Shown here piece by piece: positions 1,424 to 22,488 of a stretch of 22,990 nucleotides of DNA (its first letter is position 1; every line of letters starts with the position of its first letter). A program made the position numbers and the translations under genes. The DNA lies in IMG/VR virus record IMGVR_UViG_3300028375_000014, positions 1 to 22,990 of that record. One strand, 5' to 3'. This DNA is from a virus. Under the pieces are notes generated by a model, which was not told the DNA's origin, made no database searches, and was given only the letters and a program-made list of their open reading frames with translations.

Positions 1424-1452
1424 ACCTTACGCTCTATTGACGACCCCGTCAA
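1424..1452 (-). promoter_or_regulatory. Candidate leftward promoter with TTGACG-N4-CGTCAA palindrome
   Basis: On the minus strand, TTGACG (1452-1447) lies 17 bases before TAAGGT (1429-1424), a good -35 with a weak -10. The -35 is the first arm of a perfect 6-bp inverted repeat, TTGACG-GGGT-CGTCAA (1452-1437). A GGTTAACC palindrome overlaps the -10. The same first element, TTGACG-N4-CGTCA, and a GGTTAA sequence occur in the promoter at 4800-4828. It sits 48 bases before the ATG at 1389, in the non-coding gap 1390-1465. Confidence 0.45.
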
Positions 1453-1465
1453 CATAAAATAGTAA

Positions 1466-1646: not shown

Positions 1647-4265
1647 TTATTTCACCTCGAATATTTCTGCAGCGTTCCCCGTTGGCATTATTTGAGCGCC
1701 TTGGGCCTCTTGGTAAACCCGCGCCACTTCTGCAGCGCCTTGAATATTACAATTTATATGGCCTTTACGCACAAACAGGCGAGGCTTTTTATTATCATCC
1801 ATGGGTATGGGATTATTGACGCGCCCATCAATCAGCGCGGGATGCCACACATACCCAAGTAATTCAAGCAGGTCTTTACGCTTATTATGTGGAATTGTGC
1901 GCGTGGCATGTATCGCATAAAGCAAGCGCTCAACCGCAACGGATGAAATCCACCCGCCCGCAAAGCCTGGCCTCCCTTCTTCAACCGCTTCTAGTATTTC
2001 CTGTTCTACACCCCCTAGCGACGTAAATATGGCCTCATCTGTGCTAGTCGTTTCCGGTGCTCTATGACATGCACCCGCCGGGTTTAATTCGTCCGGAATG
2101 GCGTAGTTAGTTAAATAGTTGGCAACGATGGCGTACCCGTCAGCTTTAAGCCAGTTATACAGGTCCGGGAAATACGAACCGTCCATTTTGTCGCGAACAA
2201 TGTCAGTCGCTACCTGCTGAGCACAATAGAAAACAGAGAAGCGACGGTCATTGCGGGTTTTGCGTATACCATCCTTATAATTGCTATTTAATATAAAATT
2301 AGCAAAATTGTCACCCATAACTTGCGCTACTTGCATGGCACGCTTTGCTAGCCGGTCGTTTGTTATCATCGGTTTAAGTACTTCGATTATCTCTTTTTTA
2401 TGATCAGGAACGTAAACGTCCTCGATCCCTATGAAGAGTTTGTTAAATAACCATTCGTTGAATTTTTCTGATATTTCGCTCGCCGGCGGCAGATGGGTGT
2501 ATTTATCCCCAATAGCAAAAGCCACACAGCGCGTAAACAGCGTTTTACCATTACCTTCAACGCCTTGTATTAACGGTGCCCATTGAAACTTAATACCTTT
2601 GTGCTGTATGCACGCGGCCATATACGCTAACAGTATGCTGCGGTCGTGCTCATTTGGCAGTACTTTGGCCAGGTGTAACAAAAACGGCGCGGGATCACCT
2701 TCAAGGCGCTTAGTTTCTATAGGTAGATACGCGTTAAGTAATAGTCGCCCGTCCTCGTTAAGTAAAGCGCCCGGCGACTGTAGTGGCCTAAATGCCATAG
2801 CCTCGGCTTTCGGGTATCTGACTATCTGAGACTCTGTGAACGCGTCCCACGCCTTGCGAGTCACTTTGTCCCCGCCGTCGTCAAGCTGAAATGTATACCC
2901 GCCATAGGTGGCATTAAATTGCTCAGACTTAAGCAACGCGCCGTTTGGCGTAAAAACTTTGTGTATTTCTTGAATATAAACGCACCCTTTGAAATATTCT
3001 ATTTGCTGAGTGGCCCCAAGGTACTGATAGCCCGACAGTATTTCCGGCTCGGTTTTACCATCTGCAAGTGGTGCAGCTGCACTCTCGATAGGTGTCAACG
3101 TTTTGCGTAATTCTTTGGTTGTTTTGTCTTTGTTATCTAACCAAAATTTAGCGTTTGGCACCTTGCAAAACATTTCTATTAATTCAACTTCGCCCAAGCA
3201 TTCTTGCAGCTTTTGCGCTCTGACGCTAACAGCATAGTCTCTTTGAGGGTCACTGTTCGCGCGTAGTTTTACAGCGCCGAATTGTTGTGCTATAGCGTCA
3301 TCTACTTGCTGGACCGAATAAACAACGTCTTGCAGCGACACGGCCCGCGTAATAGTCCTAATGAGATAATCTTCGCGATCCCATTTGTCGCGCACCATGG
3401 CCGACATTTCCATTAGCTTTTGTATTCGTTCGCAATTGTTACCCGTCCAAAATGCTAAATGTTGGGCGAGGGCTGCGTCAGCACTACTGCCGTCATAAGC
3501 GCGCTGACCTTCTGTGTCTGGATATGCTTTTCCGAGGGCGTCCTCGTCACACTCCCATAGATGCTTAAAAGTGGCTCTATCGCCAAAAATAGCACCACCA
3601 CCACCTGTCTTAAGCGCGCGTTCGATAAGTTCATCGTCGTCGTCTGTACCCGTCCAACTTTCCACTGGTTCGGTCGTCCAATCTTGGTCCTTAGTTGCTG
3701 ATTTAGGCGCGAAGTAGCTCTCTATGACATCGCGTAAATGTGTGGAATGGTCATAACCGGCAGACCCAATAGTATTATCACCTGTTAAGGCAACGAAGCG
3801 GCCTTCTGTGTAGAGCTCTAAGCCTAACGGTATGTTTTTACATGAGTGCTCGGGTGGCGCGCCTGAGTATTGACTGAATATGTGCAAACCACGGCCCGAT
3901 TGAGACACCTCAACCGCTGCGCTAGGCAAACGCGCTAATATATCCATTGCAACGCTAGACCAGGTTGTATTGTCCGCGTTTAAACATTTATCTAAGTCCA
4001 CAAAGAAAAAAGGATCATTAGCGGTAAATAGGAACCCGACGCCATACTCAGGGCCGCAAAGGTTGGCCATTGCAAGGGCGTTCTGCGCGTCCGTTGTGCT
4101 GCCTGGGTCTTTTTGCCAATCGGCGCCTTTAGGGTATGACAAGCATGTATGCGGGCTTATGGGAAACTTTTTATTACTTTTAGAATCTTCGTCCCAAACT
4201 AACTTATACAAACAAAACTGATTATAGGCTGCTAGGGGCTTCAGCGCCTCGGGTAAATTTTGCAT
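1647..4265 (-). CDS. Primase-polymerase/helicase fusion (NrS-1-like, DUF5906-type helicase)
   Basis: Replicative protein expected to prime and unwind phage DNA. The N-terminal primase-polymerase core shows FFFVDLDKC (metal-binding D90 and D92), SGRGLHIF (123-130, the S-x-H type motif with H128) and the conserved strand ELYTEGRFVALTGD (150-163). A helical linker follows (about 265-310). The C-terminal SF3/AAA-type helicase has Walker A GVEGNGKT (568-575), Walker B-like LFIGIEDV (610-617) and an arginine-finger candidate NDRRF (672-676), as in phage D5/DUF5906 helicases. This order matches NrS-1-type phage primase-helicases. At 872 aa it appears complete. The start has AGGGGTG 5 bases upstream, and it begins one base after the TetR-like gene's stop. 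Its partners are probably the PolA-type polymerase and SSB encoded on the opposite strand. Confidence 0.9.
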   Translation of the reverse strand: MQNLPEALKPLAAYNQFCLYKLVWDEDSKSNKKFPISPHTCLSYPKGADWQKDPGSTTDAQNALAMANLCGPEYGVGFLFTANDPFFFVDLDKCLNADNTTWSSVAMDILARLPSAAVEVSQSGRGLHIFSQYSGAPPEHSCKNIPLGLELYTEGRFVALTGDNTIGSAGYDHSTHLRDVIESYFAPKSATKDQDWTTEPVESWTGTDDDDELIERALKTGGGGAIFGDRATFKHLWECDEDALGKAYPDTEGQRAYDGSSADAALAQHLAFWTGNNCERIQKLMEMSAMVRDKWDREDYLIRTITRAVSLQDVVYSVQQVDDAIAQQFGAVKLRANSDPQRDYAVSVRAQKLQECLGEVELIEMFCKVPNAKFWLDNKDKTTKELRKTLTPIESAAAPLADGKTEPEILSGYQYLGATQQIEYFKGCVYIQEIHKVFTPNGALLKSEQFNATYGGYTFQLDDGGDKVTRKAWDAFTESQIVRYPKAEAMAFRPLQSPGALLNEDGRLLLNAYLPIETKRLEGDPAPFLLHLAKVLPNEHDRSILLAYMAACIQHKGIKFQWAPLIQGVEGNGKTLFTRCVAFAIGDKYTHLPPASEISEKFNEWLFNKLFIGIEDVYVPDHKKEIIEVLKPMITNDRLAKRAMQVAQVMGDNFANFILNSNYKDGIRKTRNDRRFSVFYCAQQVATDIVRDKMDGSYFPDLYNWLKADGYAIVANYLTNYAIPDELNPAGACHRAPETTSTDEAIFTSLGGVEQEILEAVEEGRPGFAGGWISSVAVERLLYAIHATRTIPHNKRKDLLELLGYVWHPALIDGRVNNPIPMDDNKKPRLFVRKGHINCNIQGAAEVARVYQEAQGAQIMPTGNAAEIFEVK

Positions 4266-4266
4266 A

Positions 4267-4770
4267 TTACACCCCTAATAGTTTAATCGCTGCTTCCTTC
4301 AATTCAGGGTCCGCTTTTTTAGCGTGCTCATCCCCGTTTGCTAGCCCCTGCGCTATTACTTCGGTAACGCCTTGTTTTATGGCCCGGCGCATGATAGCCG
4401 TCTTAAGCTGCCCCATAGTGCCAAAATACCGCGTTACGAGCCCCATTGATACTCCCGCCCCCTCTGCGACCTTGTCCCGAGTAATGCGCGTATAACCTAG
4501 CTCGCGCGACATTAGTACCGCAATATTCAATATGTGGTCTTTGCGCAGCGCTGGATTGGCACGCGTTTTGCTTACGGTGTACGAAAATTCTGGAATGTTT
4601 TCGAGCTTTAACTCTTCAACAAAATCAGAAAAATTGCACCCCATAATATGCGGGAATGAGCCGTCCGGGATACCCGAACGCTCACATAATTGGCGGCGAG
4701 ACAAATTGATTAAACCATCACCTTTGACCATGCAAACAGCCACTTTTTTAACTTCGTCACGTTGATTCAT
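4267..4770 (-). CDS. TetR-like DNA-binding regulator with two tandem HTH units
   Basis: Residues 80-130 form a classical TetR/AcrR-type N-terminal domain: helix 1 ILNIAVLMSRELG, then ITRDKVAEGAGVSMGLVTRYFG, the turn and recognition helix, then the helix 4 start. Residues 7-53 align to it without gaps (10-44 against 83-117, 9 identities in 35 by eye, including the A-V-x-M, E-x-x-G and final G positions) and look like a second, diverged copy. The usual TetR ligand-binding domain is missing: only about 40 residues follow the second HTH. So this resembles a two-HTH monomer rather than a normal TetR dimer. AGGAAG precedes the ATG. A 25-bp palindrome and a promoter lie just upstream, suggesting that it represses itself and the primase operon. 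It is less likely to act only in replication initiation. Confidence 0.75.
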   Translation of the reverse strand: MNQRDEVKKVAVCMVKGDGLINLSRRQLCERSGIPDGSFPHIMGCNFSDFVEELKLENIPEFSYTVSKTRANPALRKDHILNIAVLMSRELGYTRITRDKVAEGAGVSMGLVTRYFGTMGQLKTAIMRRAIKQGVTEVIAQGLANGDEHAKKADPELKEAAIKLLGV

Positions 4771-4783
4771 TTCTTTACTTCCT

Positions 4784-4808
4784 GGTTATTATTAAGTTGA
4801 TATTAACC
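4784..4808. promoter_or_regulatory. 25-bp palindromic operator candidate
   Basis: The segment has half-sites GGTTA at one end and TAACC at the other. Ten of twelve base pairs are symmetric around a central base at 4796. It covers the -10 box and the predicted transcription start of the leftward promoter at 4800-4828, and ends 13 bases before the TetR-like gene's ATG. Location and length fit an autorepression site for that protein. Binding is inference. Confidence 0.5.
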
Positions 4809-4828
4809 CGTAGTGACGCAATCGTCAA
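4800..4828 (-). promoter_or_regulatory. Candidate leftward promoter of the TetR-like/primase operon segment
   Basis: Minus strand TTGACG (4828-4823), a 17-base spacer, then TAATAT (4805-4800). The -35 matches consensus at five of six and the -10 at four. The -35 is part of TTGACG-ATTG-CGTCAC (arms TGACG/CGTCA), the same element as at 1437-1452. The promoter overlaps the final codons of the 4803-5015 gene, and its start point would fall in the palindrome at 4784-4808. Confidence 0.5.
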
Positions 4829-5015
4829 TACACAGTATAAAATCACTGAATATAACTCGATCATCCCCTTGGCCATAGATTAACGTTTTCTTTGTGCGCG
4901 GTAAATCCGGCGGCCCCATAATGGCGACCACATCATCGAGTGTCTTAAAGCCCGAGTCTGTTGATACCCCCGTGCTTTGCTTATTAGCGTTTGTAAATGG
5001 CGTTGCGTATATCAT
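4803..5015 (-). CDS. Small hypothetical protein (70 aa)
   Basis: Unrecognised. The middle (GFKTLDDVVAIMGPPDLPRTKK) looks like a short helix followed by a Pro turn, then two or three beta strands (TLIYGQGDDRVIFSDFILCIDDC). It could be a single compact domain. It is tightly tied to the nuclease gene upstream: its ATG overlaps the nuclease TGA as ATGA, and GAGGGT in the nuclease's last codons is its ribosome site. Its last codons double as the -35 region of the next promoter. Co-translation with the nuclease suggests a partner role, but that is only inference. Confidence 0.7.
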   Translation of the reverse strand: MIYATPFTNANKQSTGVSTDSGFKTLDDVVAIMGPPDLPRTKKTLIYGQGDDRVIFSDFILCIDDCVTTG

Positions 5016-6857: not shown

Positions 6858-7135
6858 TATCCTTTACCCTTTAGTTCTTTATTAATACGCTTTTCTAACA
6901 TAGACCAAACAGGCTCATATTCGGGCCAATCTGTCTCTATAACCACGCAGCCCGTTGTGCTGATACCTAAGCTGTCAACAAAATCTTCCAGATCTTCATA
7001 TTGTGATTCAGTTAAGTATTTCCGCTTAACGACTAAATACCGTTCTTCTCGCTTAATCGTTTCACATTCGTTCGCGCTTTCGTCTAAATCATTTTTTTTG
7101 AGATCATCGTCTATCCACATTTCTAATTCACTCAC
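6857..7135 (-). CDS. Acidic hypothetical protein (92 aa)
   Basis: Unrecognised, acidic protein with a likely central helix and strands (REERYLVVKRKYLTESQYEDLEDFV, then TGCVVIETDWPEYEPVW). The frame also contains GTG at 7144, but GTG 7135 is preferred: AAAGG is then 8 bases upstream and the start falls just after the helicase TAA, whereas at 7144 the purine run touches the start codon. The stop overlaps the next ATG as TAATG. Residues near the N-terminus (DLDESANE) are shared with the next gene and are encoded by a perfect 20-base repeat. The small, acidic, beta-containing character would fit a protein inhibitor or DNA mimic, but nothing in the sequence proves it. Confidence 0.68.
   Translation of the reverse strand: MSELEMWIDDDLKKNDLDESANECETIKREERYLVVKRKYLTESQYEDLEDFVDSLGISTTGCVVIETDWPEYEPVWSMLEKRINKELKGKG
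7071..7090 (-). repeat. 20-base direct repeat, copy 2 (codes DLDESA)
   Basis: Second copy of the repeat at 6832-6851, 239 bases away. Here it encodes residues near the N-terminus of the 6857-7135 protein. Confidence 0.85.
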
Positions 7136-9164: not shown

Positions 9165-9194
9165 TTTTAATTCTCTCTTAATAAATTGTTATTT

Positions 9195-9244
9195 GTTGTT
9201 GACGCCAATGACAATACGCTATAATATAACTCCCTGTCAACAAC
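9195..9244. promoter_or_regulatory. Overlapping face-to-face promoters within a 9-bp perfect inverted repeat
   Basis: GTTGTTGAC (9195-9203) and GTCAACAAC (9236-9244) are exact inverted repeats separated by 32 bases. The left arm provides the rightward -35 (TTGTTG 9196-9201 with an 18-base spacer, or TTGACG 9199-9204 with 15) to a consensus -10 TATAAT (9220-9225). The right arm contains a consensus leftward -35 TTGACA (9240-9235) with an 18-base spacer to TATTGT (9216-9211). Each promoter reads across the other, so polymerase on one should block the other. The rightward start would be near 9232 and the leftward near 9204. Confidence 0.65.
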
Positions 9245-9263
9245 TAAACAGGATTTAAAAAAG

Positions 9264-10197: not shown

Positions 10198-11367
10198 ATG
10201 GGGCATTCCATTCTACCCCCCTCTTCGGCGCATATTTGGGGTAAGCCTGACGGCTGTACTGGCTGGGTGCAAATGTCGCAGACCTACCCTGACGACGAAG
10301 AGTCTCAAGCCTCGCGCGAAGGTACAGCGGCGCATGATATAGGCGCGCAGCTAATAACGGACGCGAAAACTAATCGAGTGCAAAATCATTCGGCGAGTGA
10401 TTGGGTCGGGATAACTGCATCGAACGGCGTACTATTTACCGAGGAAATGTTCGACTCTGCTAAGGAATACGCCGACGACGTCATTACCGTAATGCGCAAA
10501 ACGGGCATATTTGGCGGCGAGCATTTGAGAATAGAACAACGCGTCGAGATCCCAAAGGTTCACGAAATTAATTGGGGCACGCCCGACTGTTCCATCTATC
10601 ACGCCGCAGGTAATGCGCTTTATTTGTGGGATTATAAGCATGGTTTTGAAGTCGTCGAAGCGTTCGAAAACTGGCAGGGCATTGACTACCTAGCAGGGTT
10701 GTTAGATTTGCACGGAATTGATGGCCACACAGACCAAAGAACTAAGGTTTATCTACGCATAGCCCAGCCGCGAGCCTTTCACCGCGAAGGTACAATTCGC
10801 GAATGGGTAATAACTGCTAGCGACTTACGGGCTTATTTTAATACGCTCAATGCTAACGCTCACGAAGCACTAAGCCCTAACGCTAAGTTTCGTACCGGTA
10901 GCCACTGCAAACACTGCACGGGTCGCCAAGCTTGCCCCGCCGCACTTAAAGCCGGTCTCGGTATGTATGAGGCTGTTAGTAAACCCGTACCGGTAGAATT
11001 GTCGCCCGACGCGCTTGGCCTGCAATTGTCAATTGTTAAGCGCGCTCGTAAACAGTTGGAATATTTAGAATCGGGATTTGAGACACAAGCCAGCGCGCTA
11101 ATAAAAAAGGGAACTATGGTTCCGGGTTGGTCCGTTGAACAAAAAATCGGCCGTCAGAAGTGGGACAAGCCCGTCGAAGAAGTCATCGCGCTTGGTGATA
11201 TGCTTAATTTAGATTTACGCAAAGCACCCGACGCGATAACACCGATACAAGCTAAAAAATTAGGTATTGACGATGCCGTCATTATGGCATACAGTACACA
11301 CCCTAGAACCGGGCTAGAGATAGTTCCGGATAATGGAAATAAAGCAAAACAGGTATTTAAAAAATGA
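10198..11367 (+). CDS. DUF2800-type RecB/Cas4-like nuclease
   Basis: PD-(D/E)XK exonuclease-like protein of phage recombination/replication modules. Motifs: EGTAAHDIG (41-49, the G-x3-H of RecB-family nucleases), RIEQRV with E113, GTPDCSIY with D130, LWDYKHG with the D145-Y-K147 catalytic pair, and Q160 in the following helix. Four cysteines are placed as in AddB/Cas4: C20 near the N-terminus and C237-x2-C240-x5-C246 near the C-terminal side, a probable iron-sulfur cluster. The C-terminal 100 residues are unassigned. The ATG follows the preceding stop by one base with GGGGTG upstream. The next gene starts in an ATGA overlap. DUF2800 and DUF2815 genes are commonly adjacent in phages, which supports joint action on DNA ends. 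Confidence 0.85.
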   Translation: MGHSILPPSSAHIWGKPDGCTGWVQMSQTYPDDEESQASREGTAAHDIGAQLITDAKTNRVQNHSASDWVGITASNGVLFTEEMFDSAKEYADDVITVMRKTGIFGGEHLRIEQRVEIPKVHEINWGTPDCSIYHAAGNALYLWDYKHGFEVVEAFENWQGIDYLAGLLDLHGIDGHTDQRTKVYLRIAQPRAFHREGTIREWVITASDLRAYFNTLNANAHEALSPNAKFRTGSHCKHCTGRQACPAALKAGLGMYEAVSKPVPVELSPDALGLQLSIVKRARKQLEYLESGFETQASALIKKGTMVPGWSVEQKIGRQKWDKPVEEVIALGDMLNLDLRKAPDAITPIQAKKLGIDDAVIMAYSTHPRTGLEIVPDNGNKAKQVFKK

Positions 11368-20518: not shown

Positions 20519-21292
20519 CTAGCTATACTCCACTATTAAGCCTATCCACTGTTGGGCTGGGCATAATTTTAAACATAAAGCCTCGAACTCGTCTCGTCGG
20601 GCTAAGTCTATTGTTGCCTTGGCGCCAAAATCCTCGGCGCCAAGATAAATAATATAAGGCCATTTAGCCTCGTCTGTTGGTATTTCGTACACTATTGTAG
20701 CAGGTTTATTTACTAATAACTTGCCCGAAGCGCCGTTAGTAGCGCCACTAATTGCCTGCGCGTTGCCGCTAATTGCTACTGAGCCCCCGCTGTTTAGATA
20801 GAAACCTAGCCCGGTTGTACCGTCGGCTAACACTTCGAACGGGTTCCGGGGCGTTGGCGCGGAGGCTGTCTCAGTGCGTATAATGTTGCCCGCTTCTGCT
20901 AGGGGTTCGCCACACTCAGCTAAAGTTTCTCCGCATTCTATGATGTAAGACAATTGCCACCATTCGTGTACGTAGATGTCGAATCCCGCCGCTTGTAATG
21001 AGTCTTGTATATATCGGGGTGATTGCCCGCCTAATGCTTTCCAAGTAGCGTCTAAACGGTCTCGGCGCTCCTGTATAGTCAATGTGGTTGCGGGTAGCCC
21101 GAACTGTTTTTCCCATGCGTCAAGCTCGCGGGTAGTCTGCGGGAATATATCGGACCATACTAAATCCACATATTCTTTAATATCAGCGCCTAAAAAAGTT
21201 AAGCCCTCGAAAAATTGGCGGAGCTTTTTATTAACAGTTAGGCGCCACGCTCTAGCGTTAGGTAGTAAGTGTTGAAAAATTCTAAGAAACAT
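20519..21292 (-). CDS. Baseplate protein, Mu gp48/YmfQ-like (DUF2313)
   Basis: Tail/baseplate component that in Mu-type phages lies between the J-like protein and the fibres. The N-terminus (LLPNARAWRLTVNKKLRQFFEGLTFLGADI, 9-38) and RELDAWEKQFGLP...ERRDRLDATWKALGGQSPRYIQDSLQAAGFDIYVHEWW (55-112) are characteristic of YmfQ/gp48. Next comes a short three-copy motif ECGETLA-ECGEPLA-EAGNI (119-137), a variant of the Cys-Gly segment usual here. The C-terminal strand region with AKWPYIIYLGAEDFG is standard. Full length. The ATG shares one base with the stop of the J-like gene, so the order gp46-gp47-gp48-fibre is kept. Confidence 0.9.
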   Translation of the reverse strand: MFLRIFQHLLPNARAWRLTVNKKLRQFFEGLTFLGADIKEYVDLVWSDIFPQTTRELDAWEKQFGLPATTLTIQERRDRLDATWKALGGQSPRYIQDSLQAAGFDIYVHEWWQLSYIIECGETLAECGEPLAEAGNIIRTETASAPTPRNPFEVLADGTTGLGFYLNSGGSVAISGNAQAISGATNGASGKLLVNKPATIVYEIPTDEAKWPYIIYLGAEDFGAKATIDLARRDEFEALCLKLCPAQQWIGLIVEYS

Positions 21293-22488
21293 TAGATAAA
21301 CCCTATGCTAGCCGCTTTCGCCTTTTCTCCGATACCCAGTTCGTAGGTTGTTACGGGCGTTGTGTCGGTTTCCTCTATCGTGGCCGTGTCAAATACTCCG
21401 CCCGAGGCGCTTACGATACTATCAACAATGCTAATGATGGCGCCCTGAGTTATCCGGTCCCGTCTAGGTGGTATGCTTAAGCCTATAATAAACGGTTCGC
21501 GGTCTAAAAAATACTGTGTTATAGCCGCCGTTATAGCTGCTTGAACCGCCGCTAAATCGTCTACGACTACCCCGTCAATTTCCACATTAAAACCCGTTCT
21601 AGTAATTGCGTTACTGTTTACAAACGCATTAACGGGGCGGCGCGTTGCTCGGCCATTTTGATCTAATTCTACCGAGTTAAGTACCGCCAGTAATTGCGCT
21701 GACGTGGGTATCCCATCGGCTGATCCAGAACTTGCGACCGTCGCTTCTGAGTATAAATCGACTTCGCCAGGGTCGCCGGTGTACGGGTAGACGTTTATTA
21801 TTCCGACGACTTCCTCGCCCCACCCTTCATAATCCGCGTATGCGCCACCCTGCGGGCGTTTTTGAAATTTATCGACAATACGCTGGCGATATGCTTCGGT
21901 AGACTCTGCGTTGGCGCCCGTGACTGCTTGAGAGTACACAACTGCATTACGATTAACGTTGGCTAGCGGGTTGGCAAAGCTGACAACATCCGCGATCTCT
22001 AAATTGCCAATAACACCCGCGCCCCCTCCGCCTTGCTGGTCCGCCGAAGCGCGTATCGTGACTTGCACCGTTGACGCGTTTAAATTTATTGTGCCGATTG
22101 TTATATATGTCACGCCGTTGGCTGAATTAACTAGTTGAGACCCCGAGGGTAATGTCCCCGTTTGATTATTGACTGTTATGTCTATAAGTAGCTCGGCGTT
22201 AGTCGCGGCCACGGGGTCGCCTATGCCAATCAACCGGCCCCATTGCGTTAGTGGCGATATGGTAATCCCGTTAATTGTGGTTTCACTGATGCTGGCTGTT
22301 TGCACAAACATTTGTAAAAACATAAAGCCTGCATATTTATACAGTAGAATGAAAACGCTTCCGAGTGCTTTAGCTAAGACTCGTAAGAATGCTTTAGGCA
22401 ACAACGGTATGGACTGATTAAGCGACGCTTCTAACTGCGCGATTATGTTGTCGCTGATATCTTTTGTGGTAGGTGTCTGTAAACTCAT
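21292..22488 (-). CDS. Baseplate J-like protein (Mu gp47-like)
   Basis: Baseplate wedge protein of contractile tails. Features: N-terminal helical region TPTTKDISDNIIAQLEASL...FLRVLAKALGSVFILLYKYAGFMFLQMFVQTAS, then the family beta domain (GTLPSGSQLVNSANGVTYITIG), the Gly-rich turn GGGGAGVIGNLEIADVVSFANPLANV, and the conserved TGANAESTEAYRQRIVDKFQKRPQGGAYADYEGW. The C-terminus IPPRRDRITQGAIISIVDSIVSASGG is also typical. The frame can be read from a TTG at 22503, but ATG 22488 overlaps the gp46-like TGA as ATGA, matching the coupling of its neighbours. Predicted length 398 aa, normal for the family. Confidence 0.92.
   Translation of the reverse strand: MSLQTPTTKDISDNIIAQLEASLNQSIPLLPKAFLRVLAKALGSVFILLYKYAGFMFLQMFVQTASISETTINGITISPLTQWGRLIGIGDPVAATNAELLIDITVNNQTGTLPSGSQLVNSANGVTYITIGTINLNASTVQVTIRASADQQGGGGAGVIGNLEIADVVSFANPLANVNRNAVVYSQAVTGANAESTEAYRQRIVDKFQKRPQGGAYADYEGWGEEVVGIINVYPYTGDPGEVDLYSEATVASSGSADGIPTSAQLLAVLNSVELDQNGRATRRPVNAFVNSNAITRTGFNVEIDGVVVDDLAAVQAAITAAITQYFLDREPFIIGLSIPPRRDRITQGAIISIVDSIVSASGGVFDTATIEETDTTPVTTYELGIGEKAKAASIGFI

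Follow-up and report, generated by a model that had tools for sequence, protein, structure and literature searches.

A TetR-like phage protein with two tandem HTH domains and candidate double-dyad operators in replication promoters

The locus and its protein

The stretch of DNA considered here (the window) is an IMG/VR virus record of 22,990 bases. Its replication cassette has the order helicase, cytosine methylase, endonuclease, a small gene, the gene under study and primase; genes for an exonuclease, an ssDNA-binding protein and a DNA polymerase lie to the right of the cassette. The gene under study starts with ATG and encodes a TetR-like protein of 167 aa, in which two HTH domains (D1 and D2) are joined by a linker and followed by a short tail (Table 1). 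The protein matches the profile of PHROG 8723 in two stretches (E 9.3e-40). Two residues of the linker, K68 and R70, are invariant in the alignment of relatives, and AlphaFold2 places helices in the tail at residues 136-144 and 155-166.

Table 1. Features of the window discussed in the text
Feature	Position	Strand	Basis
Coding sequence for the two-HTH protein (167 aa plus stop codon)	4267..4770	-	PHROG 8723 match and relatives
D1, first TetR-type HTH, residues 1-56	4603..4770	-	AlphaFold2, Foldseek/VIA, D1 profile against PDB
D1 recognition helix, residues 36-43	4642..4665	-	AlphaFold2
Linker, residues 57-72, lower confidence	4555..4602	-	pLDDT 64-85 by block
D2, second TetR-type HTH and helix 4, residues 73-133	4372..4554	-	Pfam TetR_N, VIA
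D2 recognition helix, residues 109-116	4423..4446	-	AlphaFold2
Helical tail, short, conserved, residues 134-167	4270..4371	-	AlphaFold2 and single-HTH relatives
DNA primase/helicase gene, downstream of the two-HTH gene, expected under the O2 promoter	1647..4265	-
Candidate operator O1, 34 bp, core 1438-1451	1428..1461	-	PWM 35.0
Candidate operator O2, 34-bp double dyad, core 4814-4827, at the gene's own promoter	4804..4837	-	PWM 30.2
Candidate operator O3, core 9200-9213, divergent region	9190..9223	+	PWM 25.2
Candidate operator O4, core 11268-11281	11258..11291	+	PWM 35.0

Two homologous HTH domains, no ligand-binding domain

The original prediction saw in this protein two tandem TetR-type HTHs and no ligand-binding domain. 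The gapless alignment of residues 10-44 with 83-117 on which it rested indeed has exactly 9 of 35 positions identical. The BLOSUM62 local score of the repeat is 47, against a mean of 21 for shuffled sequence, and none of 5000 shuffles scored as well; in 15 relatives at most 1 shuffle in 1000 did. Profile-profile comparison of D1 with D2 gives a probability of 96.7% (E 4.4e-10), and the D1 profile also matches the D2 domains in the same set of proteins, along with the single-HTH proteins from Jedunavirus. When modelled by AlphaFold2 as a full-length single chain, the protein has HTH helices at 3-43 and 73-116 (mean pLDDT 88.9), and residues 1-65 modelled alone take the same HTH fold (pLDDT 87.6). 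The structural neighbors of D1 alone, as listed by Foldseek/VIA, are by title TetR-type regulators almost without exception, and TetR proteins are the top matches of the D1 profile in the PDB (best E 0.0033). D1 on its own has no TetR_N match in Pfam; as assigned by predicted fold and profile, it is a cryptic TetR HTH.

The second unit was expected to be a TetR N-terminal domain, and residues ~71-167 do match TetR structures (VIA Z 9-12). The Pfam TetR_N (PF00440) score of D2 is 22.3 bits here, slightly under the cut-off of 24, and 29-35 bits in single-HTH relatives. Shuffles, profile-profile comparison, AlphaFold2 and the TetR neighbors of both halves agree on the tandem arrangement. Since only 34 residues are left past helix 4 of D2 (residues 119-133), the TetR ligand-binding domain is absent, which was also foreseen, and all relatives compared share the absence of the C-terminal helical ligand-binding/dimerization domain. 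The protein thus has the N-terminal HTH that marks the TetR/AcrR family but not the C-terminal ligand/dimer domain, and it contains no pocket-bearing domain through which a small ligand could release it. The conservation of the tail extends to single-HTH relatives; our guess is that the tail might serve as the dimerization unit in place of the ligand-binding domain.

Relatives and their distribution

Homologs with the two-unit layout occur in more than 20 further phage contigs (29 loci in the second contig scan, including the 16 from the first) and in two isolates, Shewanella phage SppYZU01 and Acinetobacter phage Scuro. About 90 other phage records, mostly of the Klebsiella Jedunavirus type, match mainly across D2 and the tail. 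The single-HTH records examined among them have D2 with the same short tail and are sited in the replication cassette. The single-HTH group is the larger of the two. The protein had been thought an unusual phage regulator: it is most likely a phage regulator and its doubled form is rare, but an HTH-only layout as such is widespread among these phages.

An apparent 89% coverage of the Klebsiella phage MEW1 protein proved to be an artefact, that protein being a 92-aa single-HTH form. Searched with the D1 profile, the single-HTH loci examined yielded no separate gene for D1 beside D2. A prophage or chromosomal origin was considered too, and a scan, which reaches close relatives only, found no relative in bacterial genome contigs; this is consistent with, though not proof of, the probably virulent lifestyle of the phage. 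In loci L013 and L048-L050 a T-arm-like sequence precedes the HTH gene, but ARAGORN detected no tRNA gene there. A search of open-access literature by title and abstract (Jedunavirus, JD001, VchM-138 promoters or TetR function) found no study of the protein.

The recognition helices of D1 and D2 differ and each is conserved separately; D1 is very strongly conserved along its length (GLINLSR..LC...). The two-HTH phages may be one lineage, and a tree counting D1 gains is compatible with a single origin. The tails are mosaic among close relatives. Four two-HTH genes (L001 5998-6498, L035 4998-5501, L042 869-1369 and L043 4998-5498) share 83-100% DNA identity until about codon 120, past which identity falls to 30-70% in every pair except L001/L042. 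Read from these alignments, the C-terminal tail is exchanged among the four genes, with a sharp junction immediately after D2.

A recurrent palindrome in promoters

Inspection of the 120 bases before the gene in all relatives brought out a sigma70-like promoter whose spacer holds a palindrome; even the single-HTH phage JD001 shares it. We counted every 5-mer inverted repeat with a spacing of 0-14, without preselection, and TGACG-N4-CGTCA came first in each of three sets: JD001 (10 copies where 0.12 were expected), the pool of ten two-HTH genomes (25 where 0.3 were expected; p 5e-39) and the window (3 where 0.03 were expected). In the pooled genomes a spacing of 4 alone stands out among 0-20. 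The general core of the recurrent symmetric site is TGACR-N4-YGTCA, common to the two-HTH phages and the single-HTH Jedunavirus despite their unlike D2 helices (AMGSVNHHW in Jedunavirus vs. SMGLVTRYF in the two-HTH clade). The promoters with sites have a 17-nt spacer.

The single-HTH phages MSW-3 and VchM-138 have the form TTGAC-N6-GTCAA. Elsewhere in the family the palindrome differs. In Scuro, whose helices are different, the core is TGACA-N4-TGTCA; two more distant single-HTH phages with different D2 helices have the promoter palindromes GTAGCGC-N4-GCGCTAC (PY6) and GGGCT-N6-AGCCC (AeroV). As far as sequence comparison goes, core and D2 helix vary together in these three phages. The inverted-repeat count gave no clear recurrent palindrome in the single-HTH phages Vibrio 1.009.O and PD0307. 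The control phages T7 and Carvaje have zero TGACR-N4-YGTCA sites; the HTH of this family was found in neither, and Carvaje has a similar replication cassette. In Pseudoalteromonas phage PY6 (L069), five copies of its palindrome (at 7107, 8014, 12382, 19992, and 28188) lie mostly between a -35-like and a -10-like hexamer. In Shewanella phage SFCi1 (L066), an identical TATAGTTACGTAACACTAACA block covers the -10 and start region of three promoters (24421, 37640, and 38256).

Of the 12 sites in JD001, 10 precede an annotated start by 50-82 bp. JD001 (L063) has about 10 operator-bearing promoters, many of them in front of short hypothetical genes that are interspersed with structural genes; these promoters are a candidate early regulon of Jedunavirus, as read from the sequence.

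Four candidate operators in the window

A PWM built without the window's own sites finds exactly four sites there, scoring 25-35; the next best scores 4.9 and the maximum in 20 shuffles is 13.4. Each of the four lies within the replication half, in sequence that resembles a promoter; the lysis and tail half has none. O2 lies at the promoter of the two-HTH gene itself (-35 TTGACG, 4828-4823; -10 TAATAT, 4805-4800). A palindromic operator at the regulator's own promoter, a feature of the TetR/AcrR family, is thus present as a candidate, and it recurs in relatives. The promoter at O4 (TTGACG, 11267-11272; TACAGT, 11290-11295) precedes the gene for the ssDNA-binding protein (at 11364). At O3 a rightward promoter (TTGACG, 9199-9204; TAATAT, 9222-9227) is overlapped by a leftward one (TTGACA, 9240-9235; TATTGT, 9216-9211); in 9185-9245 the two are face to face and O3 spans elements of both. 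The promoter at O1 is weak (TTGACG/TAAGGT) and points leftward to a gene starting near 1389. The start of the ORF concerned (1132-1455) is at 1455, upstream of both O1 and the promoter, and a start at ~1389 after CTGGAG is more likely.

The position of the sites bears on the sign of the regulation. Were the protein to bind its operators as an activator of class II type, or to switch early and middle promoters, operators embedded in the promoters of several replication genes would be expected, as would the weak -10 of O1 (TAAGGT), since activated promoters often have such a -10. However, the sites extend over the -35 and the spacer into the start of the -10, where repressors of bacterial promoters typically bind, and the -35 and -10 hexamers are good at most of them. 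We regard activation or switching as rather unlikely, and the position of the sites makes repression likely.

An outer dyad accompanies D1

Beyond the core, the sites of two-HTH phages carry a second dyad. Among 32 promoter-oriented two-HTH sites (near-copies removed), A-8 (31/32), T-2 (30/32), and R-1 (31/32) are nearly fixed on one flank and Y16 (32/32), A17 (31/32), and G20 (27/32) on the other. These positions mirror across the core dyad (A-8/T23, T-2/A17, R-1/Y16). When Y+2, A+3 and T+9 are required on both flanks, with no promoter requirement, 19 of 27 two-HTH sites have the outer elements vs. 0 of 37 single-HTH sites with the same core (p 2.5e-10); for the half away from the -10 only, the counts are 21/27 vs. 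7/37 (p 3e-6), and as the Fisher tests assume independent sites once near-copies are gone, both p values overstate the evidence. The outer marks are retained across many otherwise dissimilar two-HTH promoters. The recurrent double dyad in promoters and its association with D1 are computed directly, as are the doubled HTH and the missing ligand domain. A single evolutionary event could be all that underlies the association, because the two-HTH phages may share one origin. The outer frame used alone in a pattern search is not specific by itself.

Palindrome and outer marks could instead be intrinsic features of strong or bidirectional sigma70 phage promoters and no operator of this protein. TTGAC doubles as the -35 hexamer, the outer TA on one side partly coincides with the -10 hexamer, and at some sites there are -10-like hexamers on both strands. 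But divergent -10 elements do not account for the outer dyad: the mirrored -7T expected of them is in just 5 of 32 sites, whereas the mirrored outer T is in 31 of 32. Moreover, YA at +2/+3 sits in the spacer and is missing from Jedunavirus promoters; Carvaje promoters (TTGACG...TATAGT) have no palindrome, and the core has no copy in either Carvaje or T7. In AeroV the palindrome lies over the -10 at two promoters and over the spacer at a third. We find it quite improbable that the pattern belongs to the promoters themselves.

It is about as improbable that another phage or host protein reads the outer dyad and that D1 is a protein-interaction or structural domain. D1 is conserved as a whole, which need not signal DNA reading, and its predicted recognition helix contains a Pro (PDGSFPH). 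Against this, D1 has the TetR HTH fold, and the outer dyad accompanies D1 and is absent without it.

One two-HTH phage (G011; locus L049, L094-L096) has the D2 helix SVSLVGYYF instead of SMGLVTRYF and no TGACR-N4-YGTCA core. At two or three promoters with altered core it appears to retain the outer marks in their usual positions, a pattern that thinly suggests an assignment of D2 to the inner and D1 to the outer element.

One polypeptide or two

The original prediction further proposed that one polypeptide may mimic a TetR dimer, a monomer binding with D1 and D2 as the two halves. The presence of two HTHs per chain, the missing ligand/dimer domain and the homology of D1 to D2 all speak for such a design. 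The recognition helices of D1 and D2, however, are unlike and separately conserved, yet the operators are symmetric. The inner palindrome is unchanged in single-HTH relatives, where a dimer of D2 alone suffices to explain it, and the two-HTH phages gain a second dyad rather than retaining only one. The proposal is therefore not supported, and we give it very little credence.

Judging by the single-HTH relatives, D2 and the tail, presumably dimeric, would suffice to read the inner palindrome, and operator symmetry suggests homodimerization. With a D2 dimer on the core shared with single-HTH phages, and D1 accompanying the outer dyad, a symmetric dimer with four HTHs is thus the simplest arrangement.

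A model for the regulator

Binding, the assignment of domains to elements, dimerization via the tail, repression and timing are what we infer from these patterns. The protein would be a ligand-independent transcriptional repressor that arose from a TetR HTH duplication. In the homodimer the pair of D2 domains would occupy the inner palindrome TGACR-N4-YGTCA, just as in single-HTH relatives, and the pair of D1 domains would lie further out, on elements around YA (+2/+3) and TA (+9/+10). The outer element is ~11 bp from the inner half-site, about one helical turn, and therefore on the same face of the DNA. The full predicted operator of 34 bp reads TA-N5-TR-N-TGACR-N4-YGTCA-N-YA-N5-TA. Because the operator reaches over the -35 and the spacer into the first part of the -10, the bound protein would block RNA polymerase at promoters of the host sigma70 type, and because its own promoter carries an operator, the protein would limit itself. 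Lacking a ligand pocket, the protein would be timed by the rise in its own concentration, by which early and replication promoters would be shut off in the course of infection. The single-HTH JD001 gp45 would be expected to bind TTGACGNNNNCGTCAA, with or without the outer marks.

We consider it probable that this explanation as a whole (a ligand-independent homodimeric repressor with four HTHs, 34-bp operators embedded in promoters, and an autolimiting early/replication switch) is right. Two findings weigh against it: Jedunavirus and the two-HTH clade have one core in spite of their unlike D2 helices, and in Vibrio 1.009.O and PD0307 no palindrome clearly recurs. With somewhat less assurance, we lean to the view that the HTH duplication lengthened the operator from one dyad to a 34-bp nested dyad instead of replacing dimerization, the outer marks being near-universal in the controlled promoters.

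Known systems and implications

The TetR/AcrR repressors (PF00440) share with the phage protein the HTH fold of both its domains, a palindromic operator overlapping the promoter and likely autorepression. The phage protein differs in having two HTHs per chain and no ligand/dimer domain, and its candidate operator is a 34-bp double dyad, whereas tetO is about 15 bp. PHROG 8723 and the single-HTH proteins of JD001 (gp45), Yokohamavirus MSW-3 and VchM-138 (gp14) share D2 and the short tail; the three phages also share the replication cassette and the TGACR-N4-YGTCA promoter sites, but have neither D1 nor the outer dyad. Mycobacterium Mce3R (PDB 9b7y, 406 aa), a phmmer match of the protein, has tandem TetR units in one chain. 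In Mce3R both units are complete TetR proteins, C-terminal domain included, whereas the phage protein, at 167 aa, doubles the HTHs only and does not consist of two complete TetR units. The proposed role resembles in kind the early switch of the lambda Cro type, in which a small ligand-free repressor acts on early promoters and on its own gene; Cro, however, is unrelated in sequence, has one HTH per chain and belongs to a temperate phage.

If the model is true, single- and double-HTH repressors on one core operator form a natural before-and-after pair that shows a gain of specificity. It would also provide a predicted early-promoter regulon for a widespread phage group, Klebsiella Jedunavirus included, whose "TetR" genes are given no known function in the records examined. 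The double operators and ligand-free design could become orthogonal repressors. Finally, a minor point of annotation concerns JD001: gp48 (L063, 30700-33396) is annotated as the terminase large subunit, a second terminase is annotated at 21028-22476, and the position of gp48 corresponds to that of the helicase in relatives.
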